A stretch of 64,000 nt of DNA from Pseudomonadota bacterium (GTDB taxonomy: Bacteria; Pseudomonadota; Gammaproteobacteria; Burkholderiales; JAJZQI01): contig JAJZQI010000002.1 of the NCBI GenBank assembly GCA_021851875.1, forward strand, positions 124,001 through 188,000. The letters run 5' to 3'. A program made the translations under genes and the position numbers. The notes beneath the pieces were generated by a model, which was given only the letters and a program-made list of their open reading frames with translations, made no database searches and was not told the origin of the DNA. This document shows positions 18,442 through 22,600 of this stretch, piece after piece (the stretch's first letter is position 1; each line of letters opens with the position of its first letter).

Positions 18442-20001
18442 TCACCCTTCGGTACGGTTACGACCGCGCTCCTTGGCTTTGTACAGCAGCGTGTCAGCCG
18501 CCTCGACCAGGTCGTCGAGTTGCTCGAAGCGAGCACTGCAGGTCACCAGACCTATGCTCACCGTCATATTCAGCTCCTTGCCGTCCGCCACCAGCGGCGA
18601 TCGTTCGATCGCCCGGCGCAGACGCTCCGCGGCAGGCCGCGCCTGATCGCCCTCGGTCAGGCTGAAGCACACCAGGAACTCTTCACCGCCCCAGCGGGCT
18701 GCCCAGTCGCCGCCGCGCAAAACGGATCGAATCAGCCCGGCAATATGCTGCAGTGCATCATCGCCGACCGCATGGCCATAGCTGTCGTTGATGCGCTTGA
18801 AGAAATCGACGTCCACCAGGGCGATGGCAAACAGGCCGTCCTGCCGTGCAGCCCGCTTCCATTCGAGCTGCAGTCTTTCTTCACCGGCACGGCGGTTGGC
18901 CAGGCCGGTCAGATGATCGAACAAGGCCAGTTTGGCAATTTGCAGCTCCTGCGCCTTGCGGTCGGTTGAATCATGTCCCACCGACACATAATGGGTGATC
19001 TCATCGTGATCGTCACGCACCGGCACAATTGACAAATCGACCCAATAGCGCAGCCCTTCCTTACTGTAATTCAGCACTTCGGCGTGCACCCGCTCGCCGC
19101 GCAGCAAGGCTTCGCGGATCTGCCTGCGCGTCGCCTGATCGGTGTCCGGTCCCTGCAGGATACGGGGCGTCTTGCCCTTCACCTCGTCCAGCGCATAACC
19201 ACTCAAATGCGTGAATGCCTGATTGGCGAAAACGATGTGCTGGCTTCTGTCGGTAATCAGCACCATACGATCGGATACGTCGATGGCGGCAGCGAGCAAA
19301 CGGCGCTGCTGGATGTCAGACTCGGTCTGGCTCCAATCCACGGCAAAGCCATGCAATATTCGCCCACTCTCGCTATCGACCGCATTGGCAACCACTTTCA
19401 GCATGGCACGCTTGCCGTCATAACCATTCGCCCGCACCGTTAAGCTGCCTTTTTTGCCCGACTCGGCCGGCGCGTGCGTGCAGTCGAGCATGCGGGCCCA
19501 TTCATCCGCCGGGAATACGGTGGTGACCGGCGCGCCGACCACCATCCCGGCCGGGAAACCGACAAAGCGCAGGAATTCGGTATCGGCGTCGACAATGCGA
19601 TTATCGTCTATGTTGATGGAAAACTGCCCCAGCTTGGCCGCTTCGCAGAAACCGGCCTCGAAGCGGGCCTGCAACATCTGCTCACGCGCGGCAAAATGCG
19701 CCGCCAGCTCCTGCAGGCTGCCGCTCACCAGCATGACGAACAGCTGCTCAGCCGCCTGATGCACCCCGTCCAGCTGCCGCACCGCTTCGCTGTGATTGCG
19801 CTGCTCAATGGCTTCCTGGACAGTTTCACAAGCAGACTTGAAAGCGCGCAATGCATTGGCGTAGCGGTGCCACAACGCTTCCAATTCTCCGTACAGGTCG
19901 TTGGCCTGGGGCAATTCGATCAGCGGCAACTCCGGTTGGAGGCCCGTTTCCTGTTGCATGACGCTGACGGCTAAAGAAAGCTGGCGTATCGACTCCAGCA
20001 C
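18442..20001 (-). CDS. PAS-PAS-GGDEF diguanylate cyclase
   Basis: This protein of at least 519 residues has a helical N-terminal region (about 1-115), two PAS domains (about 120-240 and 245-365) and a GGDEF domain with RWGGEEFLVCF (about 375-515). The second PAS has the LOV-like sequence GKTPRILQGPDTD but lacks the flavin-binding Cys. The first usual start codon is GTG at 20001. However, the frame stays open upstream with coding-like sequence to 20052, where AGGAG precedes an ATC codon; translation may begin there. No membrane segment is seen, so the enzyme should be cytosolic. Confidence 0.9.
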   Translation of the reverse strand: MLESIRQLSLAVSVMQQETGLQPELPLIELPQANDLYGELEALWHRYANALRAFKSACETVQEAIEQRNHSEAVRQLDGVHQAAEQLFVMLVSGSLQELAAHFAAREQMLQARFEAGFCEAAKLGQFSINIDDNRIVDADTEFLRFVGFPAGMVVGAPVTTVFPADEWARMLDCTHAPAESGKKGSLTVRANGYDGKRAMLKVVANAVDSESGRILHGFAVDWSQTESDIQQRRLLAAAIDVSDRMVLITDRSQHIVFANQAFTHLSGYALDEVKGKTPRILQGPDTDQATRRQIREALLRGERVHAEVLNYSKEGLRYWVDLSIVPVRDDHDEITHYVSVGHDSTDRKAQELQIAKLALFDHLTGLANRRAGEERLQLEWKRAARQDGLFAIALVDVDFFKRINDSYGHAVGDDALQHIAGLIRSVLRGGDWAARWGGEEFLVCFSLTEGDQARPAAERLRRAIERSPLVADGKELNMTVSIGLVTCSARFEQLDDLVEAADTLLYKAKERGRNRTEG

Positions 20002-20100
20002 AGCGGCGAACTCGATCAGCTGCGGCGGAAACTGTGTATGAAACTCGATGATAAGCGGACTCCTGCCGGATAGATGAGCTTATGCCACTATTCTACAGGC

Positions 20101-20202
20101 AAAAAAAGGGCGCGGGGGTAAGCCCGCGCCATAAATTCCACCAAAGGAGGAGGATGGAGGAGACAACACTGCTGCCCCGGGGAAGGGGCGGATGCAAGTG
20201 TT
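20101..20202 (-). ncRNA. Candidate small RNA with anti-Shine-Dalgarno motifs
   Basis: The minus strand carries a complete transcription unit without a clear gene. A promoter ends at 20209 and the predicted start is near 20202. A 5' stem pairs AACACT (20197-20202) with AGTGTT (20165-20170) and encloses a GCCCC/GGGGC stem. An unpaired region then contains CTCCTCC-AT-CCTCCTCC (20146-20162). A GGCGCGGG/CCCGCGCC terminator with seven T residues ends it. CUCCUCC motifs can pair with ribosome binding sites, so I infer a trans-acting regulator of about 102 bases. I do not recognise it as a named RNA. Confidence 0.65.
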
Positions 20203-20208
20203 ATTAGA

Positions 20209-20237
20209 ATTATCTAATATTATTATTTTTTGTGCAA
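20209..20237 (-). promoter_or_regulatory. Sigma-70 promoter of the candidate small RNA
   Basis: TTGCAC (20232-20237), a 17-base spacer and GATAAT (20209-20214) on the minus strand make a near-consensus promoter. It points away from copA toward the terminator at 20101-20130. Confidence 0.7.
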
Positions 20238-20437
20238 TATTTTTTTACAGCATGATGACAAAATCGTCTCCGGGCCGTTTTTTCTGTCGCCCTTGCATGA
20301 CAGCGAATGGCAGCGAAGACCGGGTCATTGCGTTCTTCCCACAGCCGGCATGGCCAATCAGCGGCAATCACGCACTTCAGCTTTCTTCCGGCCGTCCAAT
20401 TACAGTAAAGTAACGGCATGACCCGACGAGGAACGAC
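20238..20437. other. Region upstream of copA
   Basis: This 200-base region must hold the copA promoter. I see only a weak TTCAGC/ATTACA pair near 20377-20405 and no clear CueR-type dyad. No additional gene is supported. Confidence 0.35.
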
Positions 20438-22600
20438 ATGAACACGCCCCAATCCCAATCGTGCGACCTGAAGCTGAGCGGCATGACCTGTGCCGCATGC
20501 GCCACGCGCATTGAAAAAGTGTTGAACAAGCAACCCGGGGTGTCGGCCAACGTCAATTTCGCCACCGAGAGCGCCCACCTGACACTGGCCGCGGATGCGC
20601 CGCAAATTGCCCAGCTGATTCAGGCCGTGGAAAAAGCCGGCTACGGGGCAGAGCCCATTGCCCATCCCGAAGACGCCCTGGCCAGGGAGGAAGAACCGGT
20701 CAATCTATGGCCCTTCTGGACGGGCGTCCTGCTGACCCTTCCGCTGGTGCTGCAAATGGCGTTCATGCAGCCGGCAGAACACGCCGAACTGCTGCCCCGC
20801 TGGCTGCAGCTGGTGCTCGCCACCCCGGTTCAGTTCTGGCTGGGGGCGCGCTTTTACAAGGGCGCCTGGCATGCCCTGCGCGGCGGCGGCGCCAATATGG
20901 ACGTGCTGGTGGCGCTGGGCACATCCATGGCGTACGGCTACAGCCTGGGAGTCACCCTGCTGGGGGCCGCACACCTGCATGTGTATTTCGAGGCCGGCGC
21001 GGCCGTCATCACGCTGGTGATGCTGGGCAAACTGATGGAACAGCGGGCCAAACAGCACACCTCCGGCGCCATTCGGAAATTACTGGGTCTGCAGCCTAAA
21101 ACCGCCCGCATCGAACGCGCTGGCGAACTGCAGGAAATCCCCATCGAACAGCTCAGGCGCGACGATATTGTGATTATTCGCCCGGGCGAGCGCATCCCGG
21201 TGGACGGCGAAGTGCTCGAAGGACACTCCAGCGTGGACGAAGCCATGCTCACGGGCGAAAGCCTGCCGGTGAGCAAGCAGGCGGGCGACACCGTGTTCGC
21301 GGCGACGCAGAATCAGCAGGGCATGCTGCGTTGCCGCGCCACCGGCGTGGGCAGCGACACCGTGCTGGCGGAAATCATCCGCTGGGTGGCCGCCGCACAA
21401 GGCAGCAAGGCCCCCATCCAGCGGCTGGCGGACAAGGTCTCGGGCGTCTTCGTGCCGGTGGTGGTCGGCATTGCTGCGGTCACCTTCCTGGGCTGGTGGC
21501 TGCTCGCCGGCAATTTGACGGCGGCTTTGATCAATGCGGTAGCGGTGCTGGTGATCGCCTGCCCGTGCGCGCTCGGATTGGCCACACCCACCGCCATCAT
21601 GGTCGGCACCGGCATCGGCGCAGAACGCGGCGTGTTGCTGAAAAACGCCGAGGTACTGGAAACAGCCAGCCAACTGGACATCATCCTGTTCGACAAAACC
21701 GGCACGCTGACCGAAGGCAAACCCAACGTTCATGCGACAGGGGCGATAGAAGGCAGCGAAGACGCGCTGCTTTCCCTGGCGGCCGGACTGGAGCAAGGCT
21801 CCGAGCATCCCCTAGCGCGCGCCATACTGGCCGCAGCCAAACAGCGCGGCCTCGGCTACCCGGCCATCGCAGGATTCACCGCCCACACGGGCGCCGGCGT
21901 CAGCGGCGCAATTAACGGCCAGCCCAGTCACGCCGGCAACGCCGCCTTCCTGCAGCAGCAGGGCTATGCCGTGCCGGCCGCGCTGCCGCCGCAAAACGGC
22001 ACCCGCATCCACGTCGGCCAGGCTGCCCGCTATATGGGTTGGATCGACATCGCCGACCCCTTGCGCGCGGACACGCACGCCATGTTATCCATGCTGCAGG
22101 CACAAGGCATCAGCTCGGCCATGGTCACCGGCGACGGGCCGCAGACGGCGCAAGCCATCGCCCAGGCTGCCGGTATCGAGCGCTTTTGGGCCGAAACCAC
22201 ACCGGTGCGCAAGGCGGAAATCGTCAAGCAGTTGCAGGCCGAGGGTAAAAAAGTCGGTTTCGTCGGCGACGGCATCAACGACGCCCCCGCCCTGGCTGCG
22301 GCCGATGTCGGCTTTGCCGTGGGCGGCGGCACCGATATCGCCATGGAGACGGCCGATGCCACGCTGATGCATCACCCCGTCAGGAGCAGTCTCACGGCCG
22401 TTGAGATATCCCGCGCCACTGTGCGCAAAATTCGTCAGAATCTGTTCTTTGCTTTCGTTTACAATGTGCTCGGCATCCCGCTGGCCGCTTTCGGCATGCT
22501 CAATCCGGTCATTGCCGGGGCGGCCATGGCCATGAGCTCGATCTCGGTTGTAAGCAACTCATTGCTGCTCAAGCGGCTGAAATTTTTGCGTTTACCCTGA
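20438..22600 (+). CDS. copA: Copper-exporting P1B-type ATPase
   Basis: This 720-residue protein pumps Cu(I) out of the cytoplasm. It has one metal-binding domain with GMTCAAC (residues 15-21), eight membrane helices, the actuator motif TGES (about 275), the membrane CPC motif in [13 protein letters not shown] (about 375), the phosphorylation site DKTGTLTEG (about 420) and the hinge [12 protein letters not shown] (about 610). Length is typical of single-HMA CopA. The chaperone gene copZ follows after 32 bases, and an unusual small RNA unit is transcribed away from it. Confidence 0.96.

Follow-up and report, generated by a model that had tools for sequence, protein, structure and literature searches.

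What is encoded on the minus strand between copA and a GGDEF gene in the window (the whole stretch of 64,000 nucleotides of Burkholderiales DNA that was analysed), and is it an undescribed small RNA, as an earlier note made from the sequence alone had proposed? The minus-strand promoter, 5' hairpin, CUCCUCC-AU-CCUCCUCC segment, and terminator described in that note are all present as placed (Table 1). A spacer of 17 bases separates the -35 element from the -10 element (minus strand, 20237–20209). From 5' to 3', the RNA consists of the 5' hairpin, site 1, a weak hairpin looping out site 2, and the terminator, whose stem (20130–20109) has eight G-C pairs and is followed by the T residues at 20107–20101. 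In the DNA, CTCCTCC and CCTCCTCC are separated by AT (AU in the RNA). The 101-nt RNA folds with a free energy of -40.8 kcal/mol (z = -5.05 versus 200 dinucleotide shuffles). The statement that no gene fits the region stands for proteins: the open frame at 20210–20665 on the minus strand reaches no further than the promoter and appears to have arisen by chance.

Table 1. Positions of the features of the small RNA gene in the window
Feature	Position	Strand	Basis or remark
Dyad TATTAGA-TAAT-TCTAATA, candidate operator	20202–20219	minus	perfect 18-bp inverted repeat over the -10 element, ending at the predicted start
-35 element TTGCAC	20232–20237	minus	read in the sequence; same bases in the sister species
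-10 element GATAAT	20209–20214	minus	lies within the dyad
Small RNA gene	20101–20202	minus	predicted, about 102 nt; start A20202, 7 bases 3' of the -10 element
5' hairpin, pyrimidine-rich loop	20165–20202	minus	paired changes in relatives
RF02278 double-hairpin body	20102–20165	minus	cmscan
Anti-Shine-Dalgarno site 1, CUCCUCC (DNA CTCCTCC)	20156–20162	minus	sequence; no variation among the 34 sequences of alignment A1
Anti-Shine-Dalgarno site 2, CCUCCUCC (DNA CCTCCTCC)	20146–20153	minus	loop of hairpin 1; largely invariant in A1
Hairpin 1 (UCCA...UGGA)	20137–20158	minus	RF02278 structure line
Hairpin 2, intrinsic terminator with seven T	20101–20130	minus	sequence; both-sided pair changes

A promoter scan gave a result near chance (one site versus 0.6 expected). 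Nevertheless, we judge the RNA gene to be real, because comparison with the sister species (G001) settles the matter: 149 consecutive base pairs (20237–20089), from the -35 element to just past the terminator, are identical, while the flanking genes and sequence are approximately 80% identical. Outside this block, the identity in 20-base bins drops to 0–95%, and that of the intergenic DNA upstream of the promoter is 0–50%. In 34 relatives whose 5' parts could be aligned, 93.3% of the cells of the whole RNA pair, compared with approximately 32–40% in slid controls; since the alignment was made by sequence and one of its rows supplied the structure, such percentages lean towards the structure, and the double-change counts are the better measure. 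Both-sided changes occurred at 15 of the 26 pairs (7.8 expected from shuffles), and the covariation score was 0.242 versus 0.115 in shuffles (reached in 0 of 500), the slid controls giving at most 0.084. These changes affect six of the nine basal pairs of the 5' hairpin, in which 95.6% of the cells are paired, and six of the eight pairs of the terminator. Both elements show compensatory pairing. Stem sequences vary widely between lineages, with a hairpin retained in nearly all of them (L107 and L108 are the exceptions). Covariation is uninformative for hairpin 1 because its stem is almost invariant. The comparison with related genomes that the earlier note had called for was thus borne out in the stems of the 5' hairpin and the terminator and in the constancy of CUCCUCC, and its reading of the unit as an independent small RNA gene with promoter, 5' hairpin, and terminator stands.

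The anti-Shine-Dalgarno segment had been taken to be unpaired. It is not wholly so: UCCA, part of it from the first CUCCUCC, pairs with UGGA in a short hairpin, and the second copy forms the loop of this hairpin; the hairpin is missing from the centroid structure. The bases CCUCCUUU at 20150–20143 (minus strand) are identical to eight bases of the 3' tail of 16S rRNA, GGATCACCTCCTTTCT, the tail being that of a relative, as 16S rRNA was not found in the own assembly. Judged from sequence, the RNA resembles the ribosome's own anti-Shine-Dalgarno, a likeness from which we infer a function.

A single family came out of the Rfam search. With cmscan, positions 20165–20102 matched the full length (1–64 of 64) of RF02278, Betaproteobacteria toxic sRNA, with 51.8 bits, just above the gathering score of 50, and an E-value of 1.6e-8. 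The structural features of RF02278 are present, namely two hairpins, the second of which is an intrinsic terminator, together with the two CU-rich segments, CUCCUCC and CCUCCUCC, whose sequence is complementary to ribosome-binding sites and hardly varies in A1. The RNA is therefore not undescribed, as its family is named in the literature. The genome contains a second RF02278 copy (57.4 bits), whose dyad has one mismatch. Among 80 genomes, the own one included, RF02278 was found at E ≤ 1e-3 in 53, with 31 above the cut-off, and in none of 14 control genomes. An exact copy of the 27-base core is present in 42 stretches from named genomes, including Thiobacillus, Hydrogenophilaceae, Parasulfuritortus, Sulfuricella, and Gallionellaceae; the named exact-core relatives are betaproteobacteria, for example Thiobacillus, Hydrogenophilaceae, and Sulfuricella. 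Two genomes of one family (G008 and G056; L035 and L036) carry eight to nine copies of RF02278 apiece, and some of these lie only a few hundred bases apart, which suggests local duplication. In alphaproteobacterial CUCCUCC small RNAs, a CU-rich segment is likewise directed against ribosome-binding sites. The comparison with these RNAs in the earlier note was a wrong lead: the relatives found are betaproteobacterial and apparently also gammaproteobacterial, and no alphaproteobacterial family matched in the Rfam scan of the locus. Masking of ribosome-binding sites is in turn the published model for RF02278 (PMC5688073, PMC11722255), so that the mode of action proposed from the sequence agrees with it. 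We consider it very probable that the locus encodes a small RNA of this family acting by the anti-Shine-Dalgarno mode. The probability that the plus strand is the functional one, with GGAGGAGGATGGAGGAG serving as a CsrA/RsmA sponge, is negligible: several GGA motifs do lie on that strand, but neither a promoter nor a terminator was found there, and the pairing, the T-run, the Rfam match, and the spacing of the dyad all fit the minus strand.

The genomic context bears on whether the RNA acts freely. The sister species keeps the order copA - RNA - GGDEF, and the GGDEF gene lies on the same strand approximately 50 bases downstream, the terminator ending at 20101 and the frame probably starting near 20050. 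These facts would suit a role as 5' leader or attenuator of that gene. We regard such a leader as very unlikely, since the second copy, which sits between other genes and ends against a convergent one, leads nothing, the downstream gene also differs in other genera, and members elsewhere are free small RNAs (PMC5688073). Outside the genus, loci of up to 8 kb around the RNA showed neither copA nor the GGDEF gene as its neighbour. Of the links that the earlier note had raised from the neighbouring genes, the one to copper was rejected and the one to cyclic-di-GMP is not supported, as these genes flank the RNA only in this genus and the neighbours of the second copy are different.

An observation on the GGDEF/PAS gene itself (20001–20055 of the window, minus strand) is that its start seems to lie upstream of the GTG at 20001. 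The upstream frame (IIEF.TQFPPQLIEF.AV) is maintained in the sister species, where it differs by several synonymous changes, and beyond the upstream stop it contains no ATG, GTG, or TTG; an ATC that is conserved lies approximately 7 bases 3' of GGAG. The sequence suggests that this gene uses an AUC start codon.

The family name raises the possibility that the RNA is a toxin, e.g., of an addiction module, rather than a regulator. Kimelman 2012 is cited by others as the source of the family; the word "toxic" comes from growth inhibition on cloning in E. coli, and growth inhibition of E. coli by family members is cited in PMC4603805. In Burkholderia cenocepacia, the processed member ncS27 slows growth when overexpressed (PMC5688073). 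Its silencing, however, merely raises the growth rate (PMC5688073), and overexpression of S17 of Bordetella pertussis does not impair the exponential growth of E. coli BL21 (PMC11722255). The RNA here is retained at the same place in the sister species, and neither a linked antitoxin gene nor an antisense promoter was seen at the locus. A toxin is accordingly highly improbable, and we retain the regulatory RNA of family RF02278 as our reading.

What distinguishes the gene is its promoter. Dyads with up to three mismatches occur in the genome at both RNA genes and at one further site, with three mismatches. That site (L082, G000:C27:94829-94846) was set aside, being at the level of the reversed control and chance; it lies between radical-SAM-like and lipoate-binding-like genes in an apparent sulfur-oxidation cluster (named by eye). 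Loci were chosen by core or RNA with the promoter ignored. At least 14 of the 18 dyad positions were matched at 37 of the 41 loci with the exact core, at 9 of the 27 with RF02278 inside the order, and at 7 of the 19 outside it, compared with 0.15–0.32% of mononucleotide shuffles. The dyad is not universal, being missing from 18 of the 27 and 12 of the 19 loci. In 300 genomes of the order, a 16-base pattern of the dyad occurred 92 times versus 9 times for the reversed control, and at least 40 of the 92 sites are followed by such an RNA, including a divergent form with UUUCUCCUCUAUUUCUCCUUUG in one family (both by our count); the dyad is linked to the core in 23 of these genomes. The divergent RNA with UUUCUCCUCUAUUUCUCCUUUG and a TATTAGATAATTCTAATA-type promoter was seen at L134, L135, L138, L161, and L162, all from one family of the order, and two of them score under the Rfam cut-off.

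The positions that are kept within the dyad indicate its possible nature. Hardly any change is seen in TATTA, the five bases upstream of the -10 element, or downstream of it in C13, T14, and A16 of the dyad; the variation clusters at the centre of the -10 element and at a few outer positions. The per-position counts come from sites already matching at least 14 positions and favour the reference, so that the concentration of the variation is their informative part. The G at -12 is invariant in relatives with the dyad, although it goes against the sigma-70 consensus. The conserved block TATTAGANAATNCTNATA could instead be a strong or unusual core promoter with its start-site sequence and without any regulator: it coincides exactly with the -10 to +1 region, there is no linked regulator gene, and its right half-site is kept less strictly, most of all in genomes outside the order. 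We find this doubtful. The non-consensus G and the near-invariant bases on either side speak against it, and the perfect 16-mer, found at 16 sites in the 300 genomes, precedes this kind of RNA at 14 of them, which is unexpected of a generic promoter. We think an operator likelier than a plain promoter because of the concentrated variation and the G kept against the consensus, and, taken alone, the proposal that the dyad is the operator of a dedicated regulator is one towards which we lean from its sequence. The dyad and the many sulfur-oxidising hosts gave rise to the idea of a BigR/SqrR-type ArsR repressor; ArsR-type genes are present in the genome, none of them tied to the RNA, and literature searches for this type yielded no matching operator.

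The family appears to extend beyond the order. Of 274 same-class genomes searched, 30 outside the order gave RF02278 matches at E ≤ 1e-5 with 37–49 bits, below the cut-off. The 20 outside-order loci that were read (L169–L188) have ACTCCTCCATCCTCCTTTGGTGG or close variants and a GC-rich terminator, and approximately one third have the same dyad. The pattern of dyad and core was found in 16 same-class genomes outside the order and not once with the reversed control. GTDB places nearly all classical Betaproteobacteria in one order, and so the hosts outside it are probably other Gammaproteobacteria. These weak same-class matches call into question the view that the family is currently exclusive to Betaproteobacteria (PMC7011215), and suggest that its range is wider than either the Rfam threshold or the family name implies. 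A bolder proposal, which we put forward tentatively and hold to be somewhat less probable than its opposite, is that RF02278 is part of an older unit common to Betaproteobacteria and other gammaproteobacterial orders, in which one dedicated regulator would bind TATTAG-N6-CTNATA over the -10 element of almost only these genes and so turn one signal into a 16S-tail-mimicking RNA that slows translation broadly.

Our model for the locus is as follows. A trans-acting RF02278 small RNA would be transcribed from its own sigma-70-type promoter, with the -10 element inside a dyad that is the probable site of a dedicated regulator. By analogy with ncS27 and S17, the 5' hairpin is probably removed by processing, the 102-nt transcript being cut, probably by RNase E, just 3' of this hairpin, leaving a stable RNA of approximately 65 nt with two hairpins. 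With Hfq, for which the genome has two genes (L164 and L165), CU-rich sites 1 and 2, of which site 2 copies CCUCCUUU of the 16S tail, would pair with a set of mRNAs at their purine-rich Shine-Dalgarno regions; ribosome binding would be blocked, and metabolism and growth would slow while the promoter is active. For this organism, we infer the expression and processing of the RNA, its target set, and its regulator. A pairing test at start codons in the window showed no enrichment, the start codons used being those of the longest ORFs and thus unreliable. As a family member the RNA is ordinary; what merits further attention is the operator-like dyad and the wider range. On the trigger of the family, PMC5688073 states that the control of the accumulation of its small RNAs is unknown, and PMC11722255 only postulates repression of the S17 promoter; a conserved dyad that is rare at other promoters offers a direct handle for finding a regulator.

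The RNA is thus a further member of a catalogued family, for which the promoter dyad and the apparent range beyond Betaproteobacteria seem to be the new points. Its closest described counterparts are the double-hairpin RNAs ncS03, ncS05, ncS27, and ncS62 of B. cenocepacia, which are expressed (PMC4603805, PMC5688073) and whose CU-rich sites have been predicted to mask ribosome-binding sites (PMC5688073). They share with it the full-length covariance match, the two hairpins, the two CU-rich sites, and the intrinsic terminator, and differ in the host group and in the dyad TATTAGATAATTCTAATA over the -10 element here. The Burkholderia copies have a "common upstream motif" (PMC4603805, PMC5688073), which may be identical to this dyad. 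ncS27 (92 nt) also has a 5' extension, and the extension here may be removed likewise. In Herbaspirillum seropedicae, which has four members (Hsnc59, Hsnc63, Hsnc86, and Hsnc107; PMC7011215), unlike the two copies here, RF02278 lies at the 3' end of 93–115-nt RNAs, giving a 5' extension of similar size. Finally, S17 of B. pertussis is Hfq-dependent, directly represses BP2158, and is shortened by RNase E cleavage from 190 nt to a stable form of 67 nt (PMC11722255). It shares the long form with a 5' part, the intrinsic terminator, and a short form, S17S, whose CU-rich Sites 1 and 2 are conserved throughout Betaproteobacteria, whereas the long form, S17L, has 190 nt, a -10 element TACTAT, and a -35 element TTGCAT, compared with approximately 102 nt and a dyad promoter in the RNA described here.
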